From: an uncultured Lachnospiraceae bacterium
GTDB taxonomy: Bacteria; Bacillota; Clostridia; Lachnospirales; Lachnospiraceae
Reading direction: 5' to 3'
Length of the DNA: 48,803 bases
Assembly (NCBI GenBank): GCA_900316165.1
Contig: ONBW01000028.1
Location: 1-48,803 of the forward strand
A program made the position numbers and the translations under genes. Below are positions 42,540 to 48,803 of the stretch, piece by piece (position 1 is the first letter of the stretch; every line of letters begins with the position of its first letter). The notes below the pieces were generated by a model. It ran no database searches and was not told the DNA's origin. It saw only the letters and a list, made by a program, of their open reading frames with translations.

Positions 42540-43741
42540 AAAGACTATTTATAACTCTGGCGGCACTTCTACTTGCCGCCTCATTTTTTACAGATACTGC
42601 ACAGGCAGCAGAAAAGCTTTCTATCGAGCAGGTGAAGCTCGCTCCACCTGATATGGACGTCTATGTCCACACCTCGGCTGATTTGAATTTTGACAGCGTA
42701 AAGCCGTCTGATATCACAGCGGACCTTGATGGGCAGTCGTATTCTGTAAAAAGTATCGAAAACGAGGGCAATTCGACCGAGGGCGTTTTCTATGCGTTCC
42801 TCTTAGACGTCTCGGCGTCTATCCCGCAGGATTCACTCGATGCTGCGGTTGACGCTATTAAAGAGATAGCAAATGACATGAATCCGGCTGATAAGCTCGC
42901 TGTTATCACCTTCGGTGACAAGGTAAACGTGATCTCCGACGGCTCAAAGCCTGTCAACAGCACACTTAAGGCTCTGAAGGGAATAAAGGCGGATGATCAG
43001 AATACCGCATTCTATTCCGCTATGGATTCACTTATCAAGGTTACGAAAAAGGCTGGTGACCTGCGTACCGTTGCCGTCGTATTCTCTGATGGTGTAGAGG
43101 ATACAAAGGGCGATATGACTGAGGCCGAGCTGATTGATACCCTTAAGCAGAGCGGTGTCGCCGTATACGCGATGCAGGTCGGCAAAAATGTGACCAAAGC
43201 TACGACAAAGCATTTAAAGAAGTTCATCAAGGTTACTGGTGGTAAGGTCTTAGAGTTTAATGCCTCCAACGCGCAGAAAACTGTAAAATCTCTTGTAGGA
43301 AACCTCGATTCGGTTTATCGGCTTCAGCTTTTAGCCGATAAGGATTTCGATATTGAAAAGGATTCCAAGCTCACTGTAAAAATAAACGGTTTCGACCCAC
43401 TTTCCTGGACGGTAAAAAAGAAGGCCTGGAAAGTGGCTGATGGTAATCCTGCTATCGAAAAAAGAGATATGAGTAAGGCTGATACCTCTGATAATGATTC
43501 TAAAGAAGAGGCCTCTGCCGACGCAACTGAGCCTTTCAATACCAAGAAAATCAGCAGACAGCGTAAGATTATTACCTTCGCTATTATTGGCGTAGTTGCT
43601 GTCGCTGCTGCTATTGTTGCTGTACTTTCTGTTATTCAGAGAAAGAGATCAATTGACGCTTATTACAAGAATCAGGGCCTGGACCCTCATGAGATCGAGG
43701 AGATCAAGAAGAAGATCAGACAGAAGAAATGGAGAAAATAA
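42536..43741 (+). CDS. Secreted, membrane-anchored von Willebrand factor A protein
   Basis: A 401-aa protein with a signal peptide (1-24, ending TAQA before AEKL), an outside vWA domain (about 84-270) and a C-terminal transmembrane helix (about 345-368) followed by a basic tail. The MIDAS motif DxSxS is DVSAS (91-95), with FSDGVEDTKGD contributing later ligands, so metal-dependent binding is likely. The ATG at 42536 overlaps the YdcF stop; an in-frame ATG at 42506 would put ten residues before the signal peptide. Target unknown; protein-protein contacts at the envelope are the usual role. Confidence 0.85.
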   Translation: MKRLFITLAALLLAASFFTDTAQAAEKLSIEQVKLAPPDMDVYVHTSADLNFDSVKPSDITADLDGQSYSVKSIENEGNSTEGVFYAFLLDVSASIPQDSLDAAVDAIKEIANDMNPADKLAVITFGDKVNVISDGSKPVNSTLKALKGIKADDQNTAFYSAMDSLIKVTKKAGDLRTVAVVFSDGVEDTKGDMTEAELIDTLKQSGVAVYAMQVGKNVTKATTKHLKKFIKVTGGKVLEFNASNAQKTVKSLVGNLDSVYRLQLLADKDFDIEKDSKLTVKINGFDPLSWTVKKKAWKVADGNPAIEKRDMSKADTSDNDSKEEASADATEPFNTKKISRQRKIITFAIIGVVAVAAAIVAVLSVIQRKRSIDAYYKNQGLDPHEIEEIKKKIRQKKWRK

Positions 43742-43744
43742 TAA

Positions 43745-44608
43745 ATGATTGAACTGCTTAAGGCTGCGCTTTTTGGCCTTGTAGAGGGTATCACTGAGTG
43801 GCTTCCGGTTTCGTCTACCGGTCACATGATCCTGCTTAATAACTGGGTAAAGCTTGACGTATCAGACAGCTTCTACCAGATGTTTGAGGTTGTAATCCAG
43901 CTCGGCGCTATAATGGCTGTTGTGCTTATATTCTGGAACAAGCTATGGCCTTTCTGCATTAAGAAGAGAGGAGTGCAGGTAAACGGCGTTGGGGAGATAC
44001 GCTCACACGTCGCCTGGAAAAAGGGAGCCGCTGACATGTGGATAAAGATCATCGTCTGCTGCATTCCGGCCGCTGTTGTAGGCCTCCTGTTTGACGATGA
44101 GATAGATAAGCTTTTCTATCATCCGGTTCCTGTGGCTCTGGCTCTGATTGTTGTCGGTGTGATTTTTATCATTGTCGAGATGACTGCGGGTAAGAAATCA
44201 CCAAAGGCAAACTCTATTGCTGAAATGAGCATGTCTATGGTTCTTTGGATTGGTATAGCACAGACTCTTGCAGCTGTTTTTCCTGGTACATCGCGTTCTG
44301 GTGCTACGATTATCGGTGCCCTGATTGTCGGCGTAAGCCGTGAGGTGGCTGCTGAGTTTACTTTCTTTCTGGCAGTGCCTGTTATGCTTGGCGCCTCTCT
44401 TCTTAAGGTCGTAAAGTATGTCCACGACGGTGTCGCAATGACCGGTCTCGAGGGCGGTATCCTCGCTGTCGGCTGCATCGTGGCTTTCGTGGTTTCTGTC
44501 ATTGTAATCAGGTTCTTCATGAACTTCATAAAAAAGCATGACTTCAAGGTTTTCGGGTACTATAGAATTGTACTCGGAATCGTGGTTATAGCGGTGTCTG
44601 CTTTATAA
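43745..44608 (+). CDS. uppP: Undecaprenyl-diphosphatase
   Basis: A 287-aa BacA-type membrane phosphatase that recycles undecaprenyl pyrophosphate for cell-wall synthesis and gives bacitracin tolerance. The two signature loops are EGITEWLPVSSTGH (14-27) and PGTSRSGAT (180-188), with about eight transmembrane helices. It starts 3 nt after the vWA gene, completing the YdcF-vWA-UppP envelope unit, and is followed by a strong terminator. Confidence 0.97.
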   Translation: MIELLKAALFGLVEGITEWLPVSSTGHMILLNNWVKLDVSDSFYQMFEVVIQLGAIMAVVLIFWNKLWPFCIKKRGVQVNGVGEIRSHVAWKKGAADMWIKIIVCCIPAAVVGLLFDDEIDKLFYHPVPVALALIVVGVIFIIVEMTAGKKSPKANSIAEMSMSMVLWIGIAQTLAAVFPGTSRSGATIIGALIVGVSREVAAEFTFFLAVPVMLGASLLKVVKYVHDGVAMTGLEGGILAVGCIVAFVVSVIVIRFFMNFIKKHDFKVFGYYRIVLGIVVIAVSAL

Positions 44609-44621
44609 GTTGATTTTTGCT

Positions 44622-44665
44622 GCCGTCCGCAGCGGCCTTCGCCGCCGCGGACGGCTGGTTTTTTA
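44622..44665 (+). terminator. Strong Rho-independent terminator after uppP
   Basis: GCCGTCCGC (44622-44630) pairs with GCGGACGGC (44647-44655); an inner GCGGC-CTTC-GCCGC extends the stem to about 14 bp with one mismatch, then TTTTTT. Confidence 0.92.
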
Positions 44666-44682
44666 TTGGAAAGGTGTATATC

Positions 44683-45732
44683 ATGACAGTTTCACTTTGT
44701 ATGATTGTAAAAAATGAGGAGAAGGTGCTTGAGAGGTGCCTGGAATCGGTGGCAGATCTCTGCGACGAGGTCGTGATTGTAGATACCGGCTCTACTGACT
44801 CTACGAAGAGTATTGCTGCAAGGTACACAAGTCATGTTTATGACTTCGAGTGGTGCGATGATTTCTCAGCGGCAAGGAATTTCGCGTTCAGCAAATGCAC
44901 CTGCGACTATATATACTCAGCGGATGCTGATGAATATCTCGATGAAGATAATAGAATTCAGTTTAAGAATCTGATTTCAGCGCTTGATCCTGCTGTAGAG
45001 ATCGTGCAGATGCATTATTACGAGCCAGGTATTTCAGATGTACTGAATTCCAAATCCGAGTACCGGCCGAAATTATTCAAGCGGCTCCGCGCTTTCCGGT
45101 GGATTGATCCGGTGCATGAGACTGTAGCAGCAGATCCGCTTGTTTTTGATTCTGATGTCGTGATCACACATGAGCCAGCTGAGCTTCACACTTCAAGGGA
45201 TTTTTCAATTTTTGAGAAGACATACCACAGAGACGGCTGCCTGAGTAAAAGGCTCTATGCGATGTATGCCCGTGAGCTCTACAAGAATGGTACACCGTCT
45301 GAAATTAAGCGTGGCGCTGATATTTTCAGAGATGTTTTAAGTGGCGGTGAGCTGGATTGTGACCTGCTTTCGATGCTTCTTGCTGTAATGGCAAAGGATG
45401 CCAGACTTTCAAAAAATGCGCCAGGAATGCTGCTTTATACGTCAAGGCTTTTGGCGGTAGATGATCCGTGCGCTGAGGTCTGCTTCGAACTTGGTGAATT
45501 CTTTTATGAAAACGGCGAGTACAATGACGCGGCGCTCTGGTACCTAAATGCCAGCCAGCAGAGCCCTTTGATGGACGTCCACGCAGGCGGAGACGCTGCC
45601 CTCCGTGGCCTTGGCAGAAGCTATGCTCACCTCTCTGAGCAGACAGATGGCGAGGAGAGCGACAACTACCGTGACCTCGCCGAGCAGTACGAGAAGCAGG
45701 CAGATGAGTGGGAGCTGCCAGAGGAGGGTTAA
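44683..45732 (+). CDS. Family 2 glycosyltransferase with helical C-terminal part
   Basis: A 349-aa cytoplasmic GT-A enzyme. The start SLCMIVKNEEKVLERCLES, VDTGSTDSTKSIA, EWCDDFSAARNFAF and the metal site SADADEYLD are typical of GT2 proteins in the SunS/tetratricopeptide-linked group. The C-terminal part (about 190-349) is helical and TPR-like (CFELGEFFYENGEYNDAALW). Acceptor unknown. The ATG at 44683 follows GGAAAGG; an upstream in-frame ATG at 44617 lies in the terminator. The 53-bp repeat array begins 46 bp after the stop and no terminator is seen between. Confidence 0.88.
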   Translation: MTVSLCMIVKNEEKVLERCLESVADLCDEVVIVDTGSTDSTKSIAARYTSHVYDFEWCDDFSAARNFAFSKCTCDYIYSADADEYLDEDNRIQFKNLISALDPAVEIVQMHYYEPGISDVLNSKSEYRPKLFKRLRAFRWIDPVHETVAADPLVFDSDVVITHEPAELHTSRDFSIFEKTYHRDGCLSKRLYAMYARELYKNGTPSEIKRGADIFRDVLSGGELDCDLLSMLLAVMAKDARLSKNAPGMLLYTSRLLAVDDPCAEVCFELGEFFYENGEYNDAALWYLNASQQSPLMDVHAGGDAALRGLGRSYAHLSEQTDGEESDNYRDLAEQYEKQADEWELPEEG

Positions 45733-45738
45733 GACATT

Positions 45739-46202
45739 TACGAGTTGGAGCTGCTTTTTACGAGTGGCAGAAGCTTTTTACGTGTGAAAATGGGAAAACC
45801 AGGAAATCACACGTAGTGAATTGGCTGTGGCTACGTGTGAAAATCGAGAAACCTGGAAATCACACGTAGTGATTTAGCTGTGGTTACGTGTGAAAAGTGA
45901 AAAATCCGGAAATCACACGTAGAGATTTGGCTGAGGCTACGTGTGAAAAGTGAAAAATCCGGAAATCACACGTAGAGATTCGAGTCGGACTACGTGTGAA
46001 AAGTGAAAAATCCGGAAATCACACGTAGAGATTTGAGTGGGACTACGTGTGAAAAGTGAGAAATCCAGAAATCACACGTAGTAATTGGTTTATGACTACG
46101 TGTGAAAAACAAGAAAATAAGAAATCACACGTAGTAATTGGTTTACGACTACGTGTGAAAAACAAGAAATCAAGGAATCACACGTAAGAATTGATGAACG
46201 CT
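45739..46202 (+). repeat. Eight inverted-repeat units at an exact 53-bp pitch
   Basis: TACGTGTGA begins at 45779, 45832, 45885, 45938, 45991, 46044, 46097 and 46150, always 53 bp apart. Each is followed 28 bp later by its inverse TCACACGTA (45807, 45860, 45913, 45966, 46019, 46072, 46125, 46178). The arms (TACGTGTGAAAA and GAAATCACACGTAG) are nearly invariant; the central 11-12 bp and the 15-16 bp linker drift from unit to unit, units 3-5 being most alike. Two degenerate TACGAGT half-sites (45739, 45759) precede the array. It fills the convergent gap between the glycosyltransferase and the minus-strand nuclease-like gene. No open frame of note crosses it. Confidence 0.95.
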
Positions 46203-46257
46203 ATCCAGTCAAAAAAGAGAACCGGATGGGCGAAGTTAAAAATCTATAAAAGACAGA

Positions 46258-46293
46258 AACATGTGCCAGGAGAATTGCTTCCTGGCACATGTT
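46258..46293 (-). terminator. Terminator of the minus-strand nuclease-like gene
   Basis: A 14-bp stem (AACATGTGCCAGGA 46258-46271, complement 46280-46293). On the minus strand it follows the stop codon by 3 bases and is followed by TTTCTGTCTTTT. Confidence 0.8.
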
Positions 46294-46296
46294 GGT

Positions 46297-47085
46297 TTAC
46301 AAGTAGAATTCTTTGATAATTTTATTGATAATATTCATGTCAAAATTGACATGCTCACTCTCAAATGTCAGGATAAGCTGTTTACCCTGCATAAAGCCAT
46401 TCTTCTCATAGGCGTTTATTTTTTGAAGATTTTTAATGATGTAATCAGGCTTTTCCATCATCCCGAGGTGTTCGTGATAAAACACATTCCTGGTACGCTT
46501 ATTAAGGACAGTGAAATCAGGATATACTGGGCCGTAACCTTTCAGATCTAGTCTGCACTCATATCTGAACGGGACGCCGGCTTCCTTTAAGGCATTGGCG
46601 ATTAATAATTCGGACTTAGACCGATATCGTTCGCCATCGTTTGAAATATATTCTTCATTAATTTTGAAATCAAGGGTAGGGTAATCGGCTTCAATCCATT
46701 GCTTCGCGAAAGTATCATTATCAATGCATGGAGGCGCAATGAGTTTACGCTTTGCTTCAGGAAAAGACTTGTAGATCTCTTCCACAGGTGTTTTTGAAAT
46801 GCCATCTAAAAATCTGGTTATATGCTTTAACTCATTTTCTGCACATGATAATAACTTTGAAAAATATTCCTTCGAAACAAGCTTTTCAATCAGAACCTTG
46901 TCGCTTAGATATTTGCGCTTTCCTTTACAATTATTGTAAAAATAAAACTGAGCAACGCCGTTGGAGCATGATGTCGCTACGCGCCCTTCAGGCGCTGACG
47001 CAAGCTTTTTTCTACAAAATGAAATAATTGATTCCAAAAACTTCTTTCTGGATTTTAGTGATTTGATAGTCTCCTCCCTTGTCAT
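46297..47085 (-). CDS. PD-(D/E)XK nuclease-like protein
   Basis: A 262-aa soluble, Lys-rich protein. Residues 1-100 are a helical, charged region. The C-terminal part has the layout of the PD-(D/E)XK nuclease fold: Glu159 in RSKSELLIANALKEAGV, Asp190 in VYPDFTVL, and Glu205 in YHEHLG; the usual Lys after the last acid is not obvious, so activity is not certain. Related PDF...EHLG proteins are scattered through Lachnospiraceae. The ATG (complement of 47083-47085) follows AAGGGG; an in-frame start at 47154 is less likely. The gene is AT-rich compared with its neighbours and sits between the repeat array and tRNA genes, which suggests horizontal gain. Confidence 0.7.
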   Translation of the reverse strand: MTREETIKSLKSRKKFLESIISFCRKKLASAPEGRVATSCSNGVAQFYFYNNCKGKRKYLSDKVLIEKLVSKEYFSKLLSCAENELKHITRFLDGISKTPVEEIYKSFPEAKRKLIAPPCIDNDTFAKQWIEADYPTLDFKINEEYISNDGERYRSKSELLIANALKEAGVPFRYECRLDLKGYGPVYPDFTVLNKRTRNVFYHEHLGMMEKPDYIIKNLQKINAYEKNGFMQGKQLILTFESEHVNFDMNIINKIIKEFYL

Positions 47086-47304
47086 AGAGTTCCCCTTTCT
47101 AAAAACATTCGATAGCTGCACTTTGATGAAAAACAGATGTCGAAATTTTATCACGATTTAGTAGACACGTCAATAGTTTATTGAATTTTATATATTTTTA
47201 TGAAGGCTTGATTTTTTTACTAATAATTTAAAGAAAAAATATCATAATTCTAAATGAAAGATGTTTCTGTTTTACAAAAAATATCAAAAAAATAAAAAAA
47301 GTAC
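47086..47304 (+). other. AT-rich intergenic stretch
   Basis: The 219 bp between the divergent nuclease-like gene and the tRNA promoter are very AT-rich, with several A- and T-tracts. I see no gene and no clear promoter for the minus-strand gene. Confidence 0.6.
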
Positions 47305-47333
47305 TTGACACACTACCCCGATTGTTATAGAAT
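47305..47333 (+). promoter_or_regulatory. Promoter of the six-tRNA cluster
   Basis: Perfect TTGACA (47305-47310), 17-bp spacer, TAGAAT (47328-47333). Confidence 0.85.
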
Positions 47334-47336
47334 ATA

Positions 47337-47374
47337 TCTTGCGTTTGCGAGAGAAACAAAGCACAAATGCAAGA
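47337..47374 (+). ncRNA. tRNA leader hairpin with conserved loop motif
   Basis: TCTTGC (47337-47342) pairs with GCAAGA (47369-47374) around GCGAGAGAAACAAAGC (47347-47362), 14 of 16 identical to the loop in the tRNA-Leu(AAG) leader at 16607-16622. It again starts at the predicted +1. Confidence 0.5.
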
Positions 47375-47380
47375 GATTAG

Positions 47381-47455
47381 CGAGGTGTGGCTCAGTTTGG
47401 CTAGAGCACCTGGTTTGGGACCAGGGGGTCGCAGGTTCGAATCCTGTCACCTCGA
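47381..47455 (+). tRNA. tRNA-Pro (anticodon TGG)
   Basis: 75 nt. Acceptor CGAGGTG/CACCTCG, anticodon stem CCUGG/CCAGG with loop UUUGGGA (UGG). CCA not encoded. Confidence 0.95.
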
Positions 47456-47490
47456 TTTTGGGAAGAGTGGGAAAATTGAAGAGATGACGT

Positions 47491-47561
47491 GCAGGTGTAG
47501 TTCAATGGTAGAACACCAGCCTTCCAAGCTGGATACGTGAGTTCGATTCTCATCACCTGCT
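47491..47561 (+). tRNA. tRNA-Gly (anticodon TCC)
   Basis: 71 nt. Acceptor GCAGGTG/CACCTGC, anticodon stem CCAGC/GCUGG with loop CUUCCAA (UCC). Discriminator U. Confidence 0.95.
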
Positions 47562-47569
47562 TTTTATAT

Positions 47570-47643
<74 letters not shown>

Positions 47644-47648
47644 TTTGT

Positions 47649-47723
47649 GGTGGGTATAGCGCAGCTGGTTAGCGCGCCAGATTGTGGCTCTGGAGGCCAA
47701 GGGTTCGAATCCCTTTATCCACC
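47649..47723 (+). tRNA. tRNA-His (anticodon GTG)
   Basis: 75 nt counting the extra G(-1) at 47649, which faces discriminator C. Acceptor GTGGGTA/TATCCAC, anticodon stem CCAGA/UCUGG with loop UUGUGGC (GUG). Confidence 0.95.
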
Positions 47724-47764
47724 CTGGCGGAAACGCACCGCTTTTTTATATCAGTTGGATTCGT

Positions 47765-47836
47765 TGGGCTATCGCCAAGCGGTAAGGCACAGGATTTTGA
47801 TTCCTGCATTCGCCGGTTCGAATCCGGCTGGCCCAG
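47765..47836 (+). tRNA. tRNA-Gln (anticodon TTG)
   Basis: 72 nt. Acceptor TGGGCTA/TGGCCCA (one G-U), anticodon stem CAGGA/UCCUG with loop UUUUGAU (UUG). Discriminator G. Confidence 0.95.
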
Positions 47837-47869
47837 ATTTTTAATCCAGTGATGTTAAATCACTGATAA

Positions 47870-47942
47870 GGGGTATTAGCTCAGTTGGTAGAGCACTTGA
47901 CTTTTAATCAAGTTGTCGGGGGTTCAAATCCCCCATGCCTCA
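47870..47942 (+). tRNA. tRNA-Lys (anticodon TTT)
   Basis: 73 nt. Acceptor GGGGTAT/ATGCCTC (two G-U pairs), anticodon stem CUUGA/UCAAG with loop CUUUUAA (UUU). Discriminator A. Confidence 0.95.
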
Positions 47943-47955
47943 GTATTTTGTGAAG

Positions 47956-47998
47956 TCTCTGAAAGCCTTTAGAATAAAGGATTCAGGGATTTTTTTTC
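47956..47998 (+). terminator. Terminator of the tRNA cluster
   Basis: TCTCTGAA..CCTTT pairs with AAAGG..TTCAGGGA (one G-T pair and a 2x2 internal loop), followed by eight T. Confidence 0.85.
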
Positions 47999-48001
47999 TT
48001 G

Positions 48002-48040
48002 AAAAAATAAACGCCCACAGGAATTTTCCCTGCAGGCGTT
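48002..48040 (-). terminator. Terminator of ribU (minus strand)
   Basis: AACGCC (48010-48015) and GGCGTT (48035-48040), with an inner CAGG/CCTG, form the stem; on the minus strand it is followed by a T-run. Confidence 0.8.
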
Positions 48041-48069
48041 TTATTTTTACAGCATGATTATGAAAAGCT

Positions 48070-48687
48070 TTAGTTCTTCCCCTTAATAACCGGTGAAATC
48101 CTCTTGTAGATAAGGAAAGTTATCAGCACGTCTATCATACCCTTTACAAAGGTGAAAGGCATATTGAAGCAGCAGATGGACTGCTCGACGGAGTGCATTG
48201 AAGGGATGATGGCCTGGTAAGCGGCAAGGATCGCATCTTTCGGCATGAACTTGTAATAAACAGGATATACGAGAAAGATGTTCGATGGAATGCTTACAAG
48301 CGCCATGATGATGGCACCGGCGAAGGATGCGATTACGGCACCCTTTTTAGTTTTGTTGAATTTGTAGATGAATCCGGCGACGGCAACGAAAACAGCGCCA
48401 AGGATGAAGTTTGAGAGCTCACCGACACCGCCGGATGAAGAGAGAGGCAGGTGGAGCAGATTTTTGATAAGCTCAATCAGGATTCCGTAGAGAGGCCCCA
48501 TTGCAAAGGAACCTATCAGTGCCGGAAGATCTGAGAAATCGAACTTGATGAAGACCGGCATGATGAAAGGAACCGGAAGCTCGATAAGCTGAAGAACAAA
48601 GGCGCAGGCAGATAAAACACCGGTAACAGCGATAAATCTTACCCGCCTTCTGGTAGAACTGCCAGTAGATGAATTGGAAAATGACAT
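48070..48687 (-). CDS. ribU: Riboflavin ECF transporter substrate-binding protein RibU
   Basis: A 205-aa integral membrane S component of an energy-coupling-factor transporter, which captures riboflavin and works with the shared EcfA-EcfA'-EcfT module (not in this window). About six hydrophobic segments follow a Ser-rich, basic N-terminus. The stretch FIKFDFSDLPALIGSFAMG with YGILIELIKNLLH (about 46-80) is the RibU signature. AAAAGGAG lies 7-8 nt before the ATG. The 116 bp available upstream show none of the conserved FMN riboswitch blocks, so control is not evident. Substrate call rests on the family signature. Confidence 0.9.
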   Translation of the reverse strand: MSFSNSSTGSSTRRRVRFIAVTGVLSACAFVLQLIELPVPFIMPVFIKFDFSDLPALIGSFAMGPLYGILIELIKNLLHLPLSSSGGVGELSNFILGAVFVAVAGFIYKFNKTKKGAVIASFAGAIIMALVSIPSNIFLVYPVYYKFMPKDAILAAYQAIIPSMHSVEQSICCFNMPFTFVKGMIDVLITFLIYKRISPVIKGKN

Positions 48688-48769
48688 AAAAAACTCCTTT
48701 TAATTATAGGGGTGTTTCATGAATGTATAACTGAATAATAGGATTTTTTGAAGAAGGCCAAGTCTGGAG

Positions 48770-48775
48770 ATTATA
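48770..48775 (-). promoter_or_regulatory. Candidate -10 box of ribU
   Basis: On the minus strand TATAAT, about 83 bp before the ribU start. No matching -35 is seen 17 bp upstream, so support is weak. Confidence 0.3.
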
Positions 48776-48803
48776 CTCATACATATTCCAGAAATGGCCC
48801 TTT

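Follow-up and report, generated by a model that had tools for sequence, protein, structure and literature searches.

Close to one end of the window (the whole 48,803-nucleotide stretch analysed here, from an uncultured Lachnospiraceae bacterium), a short palindrome recurs eight times at a spacing that does not vary. What reads such a row, and what placed it there?

A palindrome array of fixed pitch

Exact matching finds eight perfect units in an indel-free row (Table 1), starting at 45779, 45832, 45885, 45938, 45991, 46044, 46097 and 46150, with arm starts alternately 28 and 25 bp apart. Across 100 dinucleotide-preserving shuffles of the window, eight units never arose and the top count per shuffle was 0. 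Matches and shuffles together bear out the rigid eight-unit row described in an earlier sequence-only reading, whose range of 45739–46202 contains the array and is slightly too wide. Mean pairwise identity between the units of this array is 1.00 for the arms, 0.74 for the inner 19 bp and 0.62 for the linkers. An Rfam search of window positions 43000–48803 matched only six tRNAs and nothing in the array; the tRNA genes form a cluster at 47381–47942, beyond the nuclease-fold gene of Table 1.

Table 1. Positions of the array, its parts and adjoining features in the window
Feature	Position	Strand
Array: eight 37-bp palindromes, TACGTGTGA-N19-TCACACGTA, and seven 16-bp linkers; pitch exactly 53 bp	45779–46186	.
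Unit 1: left half-site 45779–45787, right half-site 45807–45815; units 2–8 follow at 53-bp steps	45779–45815	.
First linker, 16 bp: constant length, variable sequence	45816–45831	.
Imperfect 20-bp direct repeat TTTACGAGTGGCAGAAGC, 2.5 copies, at the left edge; overlaps the first arm, separate from the array	45737–45786	+
Candidate cognate protein gene: 262 aa from the MTREE methionine common to the paralogue; mechanical ORF to 47154	46297–47085	-

The arms recur between genes across the source genome

The source genome (G000, a 117-contig draft) carries 39 exact units with the arms of the window array (family A), and their inner segment is always 19 bp although the pattern permitted 10–30. With up to three mismatches there are 54 matches, 53 of them placed. 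Read out, these fall at about nine places (C14, C38, C39 with C51, C50, three on C54, C63 and C107, which holds the window) with 53 full units and a pitch of 53 in every multi-unit array. The contig ends C39 and C51 are probably one array, as their matching sequences and the gene order of G012 suggest, and are counted as such; the place on C38 comprises one and a half units. A reverse transcriptase resembling a group II intron protein (L012 7960–9354) lies 2.3 kb from that C38 place. Oriented alike, the arrays show an A-rich consensus in the inner 19 bp, and the linkers are array-specific.

Family-A arrays are intergenic, lying between prmC and prfA, hemC and cobA-hemD, and aroA and RNase H, upstream of a queH-argH region, upstream of ldh, and elsewhere (neighbour names were read by eye from translations). 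The gaps that hold them are convergent, divergent and co-directional, and the arrays keep no fixed orientation to the genes. hemC and cobA are about 430 bp apart with an array in G000 versus 4 bp apart in G002, an array-free site that bears on a comparison with MITEs, which are recognised by a target-site duplication and an autonomous parent sharing their ends. A tandem-repeat scan detected no 53-bp array at the prmC loci fetched from 11 of 11 sister species; the prmC–prfA gap of G010 holds a different, 66-bp tandem repeat (L040 2540–2670). The RNase H–aroA gap carries family A in G000 (C39 and C51, unjoined in the assembly) and a second family, B, in the sister species G012.

One architecture with differing arms

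Family B, TACG[GT]ACT-N20-AGT[AC]CGTA (also written TACG[GT]ACTG-N18), has a pitch of 52 bp and numbers 79 units in G012 and 17 in G000. At two places on C54 of G000, A and B units stand in one row with the usual 16-bp linker (L016 12091–12549, L028 4934–5287). G000 has a further family, TACGTACCA-N19, and an imperfect one, TACG[GT]ACAG...CTGTATGT, of 53/106-bp period. Palindromes of the form TACGTACCA..TGGTACGGA directly adjoin the aroA/RNase H array of family A (L015 370–471, L013 111–187), with a linker of about 26 by eye. Three arrays of the less symmetric 53/106-bp-period family flank a second nuclease paralogue on C64 (L201 185–633, 3303–3824 and 5390–5824).

The sequence-only reading had suggested a search of related genomes for the arm motif at 53-bp spacing. 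The exact arms occur in none of 60 other relatives; what recurs, with other arms, is the architecture. A general pattern, TACG-N26-31-CGTA-N16-TACG-N26-31-CGTA, has matches in 12 of 145 genomes, as many as 60 in one genome: G000, 1 of 12 other members of the genus (G012), 10 of 77 other members of the family and, beyond the family, none of 55 genomes of the order. A reversed-pattern control gave 18 matches in 8 other genomes, 10 of them in one genome, and at least one general-pattern match in G080 resembles coding chance. Eleven units TACGCGC[AT]A-N19-...GCGCGTA make up an array of G109 (C23, L178 435–1111), whose pitch is rigid at 64 bp and exceeds the usual one by roughly a helical turn. Mageeibacillus sp. 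UBA3781, the one record matched by family A among the genome contigs searched, has three units with linkers of 36 and 25.

Family A is absent with degenerate arms from 298 other genomes of the family and with one mismatch from 390 other genomes of the class; with up to three mismatches it gives 8 matches in 7 of 12 other members of the genus, not above the reversed control (11 matches in 8). The plasmids, phages and viral contigs searched lack it, and TACGGGTGA had no match in the plasmid, phage and viral-contig search. For family B, G008 and G014 each have one match with one mismatch, against a control of 7 matches in 6 genomes, and one viral contig has one family-B-like palindrome whose loop is unlike those of other units.

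Arms and spacing are constrained

Across the 50 units of eight family-A arrays, bases depart from the majority of their array at 15/900 positions in the arms, 131/950 in the inner segment and 128/672 in the linker. Against the pooled inner and linker positions (259/1622), the odds of change are 11 times lower in the arms (odds ratio 0.089, p 2e-35, on the assumption of independent positions, which unit duplication violates), and the proposed constraint on arms and spacing is supported. Inner segments and linkers are more alike within arrays than between them (0.77 versus 0.56 and 0.70 versus 0.33, respectively), which matches the expectation from local duplication.

Arm bases 5–8 appear to vary between lineages yet keep palindromic symmetry. 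In units picked blind to arm positions 5–9 (43 clusters, 12 genomes), complementarity at positions 5–8 occurs in 38, 34, 36 and 29 clusters (shuffle means 19.6, 12.0, 20.7 and 13.9), values never reached in 5000 shuffles, although the clusters are not independent because those of one genome share arms. Position 9 is complementary in 17 of 43, and neither it nor the inward positions covary. When each genome contributes a single cluster (n = 12), the excess is still seen at positions 5, 6 and 8 (3, 3 and 68 of 5000 shuffles) but not at 7 or 9 (1413 and 1156 of 5000).

In 13 genomes, among 196 pairs of neighbouring units, the linker is 16 bp in 160, an excess partly built in because a 16-bp-linker pattern was used to find most arrays that belong to neither A nor B. 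A further 12 are 15 or 17 bp, 14 are 25–27 or 36, 9 are 68 or 69 (space for one decayed unit) and one is 74. None is 18–24 or 28–35 bp long, a gap that rests on few arrays, and the 14 longer linkers come from four: ten of 27 in one G109 array, one of 25 in G106, one of 26 in G077, and the 25 and 36 of UBA3781. With 172 of 196 linkers at 15–17 bp and 14 at 25, 26, 27 or 36, the longer values from four arrays, the helical phasing postulated for the window array extends to the wider set. Such lengths, 15–17 bp or whole turns of the helix beyond, fit protein dimers on one DNA face better than RNA hairpins.

A nuclease-fold gene adjoins palindromes in seven genomes

The candidate cognate gene of Table 1 ends, 3′, 110 bp from the window array. 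Homologues lie beside 6 of 45 multi-unit arrays (G000, G033, G035, G080, G106 and G109), and in UBA3781 one lies 98 bp from a lone perfect palindrome, beyond which stand loose half-sites, making seven genomes. In all seven stretches the gene is the immediate neighbour (rough chance product 1e-4), at distances of 53 bp in G033, 48 in G106, 117 in G035, 99 in G080 and 21 in G109 (mechanical start). G000 carries a further copy on C64, which is 68% identical and has a different-armed array of 53/106-bp period 63 bp downstream. Both G000 copies and that of UBA3781 have the array on their 3′ side; the other five have it 5′. The C64 copy came up in a region taken for a unit about 8.6 kb away.

No copy adjoins the remaining 39 of the 45 multi-unit arrays. 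For family A in G000, 8 of 9 places have other neighbours, and the fetched arrays read in G012, G021, G064, G077, G088 and G099 (6 of 13 palindrome genomes) have no copy beside them. A strict rule of one protein per arm family does not hold, because A and B units share the two C54 arrays. Searching the fetched loci with four tblastn queries, we found no copy away from such palindromes save MT839528.1 and one C-terminal-only relative. MT839528.1 is a 4.2-kb contig that encodes a full-length homologue, carries no TACG array and stops 376 bp past the gene. This contig is labelled phage, also encodes an ABC-transporter-like gene and has repeated GTTGC/GCAAC motifs 3′ of the homologue instead of TACG palindromes (L179 3836–4212).

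The protein has an N-terminal part of helix, beta and long helix and a C-terminal PD-(D/E)XK nuclease-like domain. Neither Pfam nor NCBIfam gave a match above chance, and a PDB sequence search gave no convincing match (best E 2.9). PADLOC PDC-S68 profiles match 4 of 4 members tested (best 2.7e-27), and the C-terminal half resembles PDC-S68 and plasmid proteins annotated as AAA ATPase or RecD-like helicase, in each case at their nuclease end. RSK-x-E, D190, E205-H206-x-G and K222 are invariant, with E159, D190 and E205 present in 9 of 9 aligned proteins. A model of the C64 paralogue from an eight-sequence input (pLDDT 87, pTM 0.55) has a helix–strand–helix N terminus and an alpha/beta nuclease-like C terminus; a first, poor model (pLDDT 57) was discarded. 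Foldseek against the PDB returns the restriction enzyme DrdV as best match, then R2 retrotransposon proteins, Bax1 and MunI, all weak (E 0.02 or worse); against viral models, 16 matches reach E 0.001 or better, endonuclease, restriction and DUF2726 proteins among them, TM-scores being low. The acidic residues in all nine proteins, the strand and helix order of the model and the PADLOC profiles place the protein in the PD-(D/E)XK superfamily, the PDB matches being weak. Nuclease activity is uncertain because the E-x-K position of the motif reads E-H-x-G; K222 is invariant.

Viral contigs yielded no protein relatives to a four-sequence alignment query and eight to a nine-sequence query, matching over the C-terminal part only. 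Nine phage or viral contigs with such C-terminal-only relatives (L180, L202–L209) carry no TACG array, the one stray match lying inside the coding match.

A proposed nuclease–palindrome system

The arms, pitch, dispersal, arm covariation, linker-length classes, adjacency in seven genomes and nuclease-like fold can all be read from sequence, and from them we propose that the array is probably a row of dimeric DNA-binding sites of a nuclease–palindrome system resembling RAYT/REPIN. Each half-site would consist of TACG and about four lineage-specific bases, two inverted half-sites giving a 36–37-bp unit, and the linker, of 16 bp or one to two turns of the helix longer, would set bound dimers on one helix face. 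The likeliest binder is the PD-(D/E)XK nuclease-fold protein of the adjoining gene, which may bind as a dimer and cooperate with its bound neighbours. It may also nick or cut at the arms, and repair of the break could copy and spread the units. Gene and palindromes would resemble RAYT genes and REPINs in that palindromes lie beside the gene and dispersed between others, arms shift together in each lineage and each array grows by local tandem duplication. Dimer binding is the more strongly argued part of this mechanism, cut-driven spread the less. More tentatively, the system could be a RAYT-independent, enzyme-directed palindromic repeat in which a PD-(D/E)XK nuclease with an evolving four-base code builds, homogenises and spreads phased arrays through repair of its own cuts, paralogues favouring different arm families.

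REPIN arms are likewise lineage-specific. REPINs are reported to be inverted pairs, extragenic, in tandem arrays in some genomes, with repeats adjoining the enzyme gene (PMC3116915); the present arrays share with them the dispersed, extragenic inverted palindromes and the place beside an enzyme gene, but with a different protein, PD-(D/E)XK-like rather than Y1, a fixed outer TACG and a rigid 52/53-bp pitch. REP and REPIN elements are defined by a GTAG or CGTC tag at one end (PMC3733652); the ends here are symmetric, TACG and CGTA, and in family A CGTA is followed by G at an array-weighted frequency of 0.74, a base that varies in other families. The nuclease–palindrome system would work like RAYT/REPIN but lacks that family's defining features. 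PDC-S68 and other PD-(D/E)XK domains (restriction, DUF2726, DUF559, TnsA-like) resemble the C-terminal domain, through the PDC-S68 profile and weak fold matches; unlike PDC-S68-type nucleases, the protein here is short, with its own N-terminal part and adjoining palindromes, and the nine C-terminal-only contigs have no array. Cooperative operator arrays such as parS/ParB and TnsB-type end sites also consist of repeated, helically phased sites, but the present arrays are dispersed, with species-specific arms and a nuclease-like gene beside some. CRISPR arrays have regularly spaced palindromic units; here, in contrast, units drift and the 16-bp linkers are related within an array (0.70 identity) where CRISPR spacers are unrelated, and no Cas neighbour was recognised by eye.

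Alternative explanations

Constraint on arms and phase would also suit nucleoid-organising, partition-like or regulatory sites of another host binder, the nuclease gene being a bystander or merely regulated by the array. The arrays without a nuclease neighbour, which are the majority, favour this, as does the RNase H–aroA gap, with A in one species and B in the other as though the location had persisted through a change of arms. We nevertheless consider it unlikely, given the patchiness of the general pattern within the genus, the array-free prmC loci and hemC–cobA junction, the one neighbour family common to seven genomes, and arm identities that differ between species, unlike parS-type sites. 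Of the cooperative binding array envisaged by the sequence-only reading, the protein-binding part is supported by arm constraint and phasing; an origin or partition site, which for a ParB/parS type would entail a ParB-like binder and a place near the origin, is not specifically supported, because about nine family-A arrays sit between ordinary genes. Somewhat less likely again is a defence or conflict module with the nuclease as effector and the arrays as decoys, operators or self-markers restraining it. The C-terminal domain is indeed closest to the PADLOC phage-defence candidates PDC-S68/S69 and near the nuclease ends of the plasmid ATPase and helicase proteins, but TACG arrays occur in none of the nine contigs with C-terminal-only relatives, and dispersal between housekeeping genes would be left unexplained.

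Reading the array as RNA, a chain of eight hairpins acting as terminator, mRNA stabiliser or small RNA, is very unlikely. Six single units do fold better than shuffles (z -3.3 to -5.9), but arrays occupy gaps of every gene arrangement in both orientations, arm departures on the A-rich strand show no clear G-U bias (41 G-U, 33 A-C, 66 other), linkers step by the DNA turn and the window array has no Rfam match. True REP/REPIN elements moved by a Y1 (RAYT) transposase are slightly more improbable: the repeats are palindromic, extragenic and dispersed and G000 has four Y1_Tnp matches, but none of these four loci has an exact arm, the two unbroken proteins look like IS200/IS605 TnpA (one adjoining a TnpB-like gene), the array-rich G012 has no Y1_Tnp match, which contradicts this reading unless the gene is missing from that 40-contig assembly, and the fixed GTAG or CGTC tag is absent. 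Neutral tandem expansion would explain why units resemble their array neighbours, yet it is scarcely credible, being contradicted by the low odds of change in the arms and by a pitch identical across arrays whose linkers differ.

Implications

The array belongs to a repeat family, but nothing marks it as a fragment of a known one: in agreement with the sequence-only reading, no phased palindrome-array family of this kind turned up among the papers listed in a literature search, and nuclease-linked phased palindrome arrays look like an undescribed repeat system. If the proposed nuclease–palindrome system is real, it would be a new enzyme–repeat partnership, built on a protein unrelated to RAYT. 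Eight related proteins beside differing arm sequences would then offer a natural series for reading a DNA recognition code. Two questions would come within direct reach of experiment: by what route short palindromes spread through bacterial chromosomes, and why they keep a spacing tied to the helical turn.
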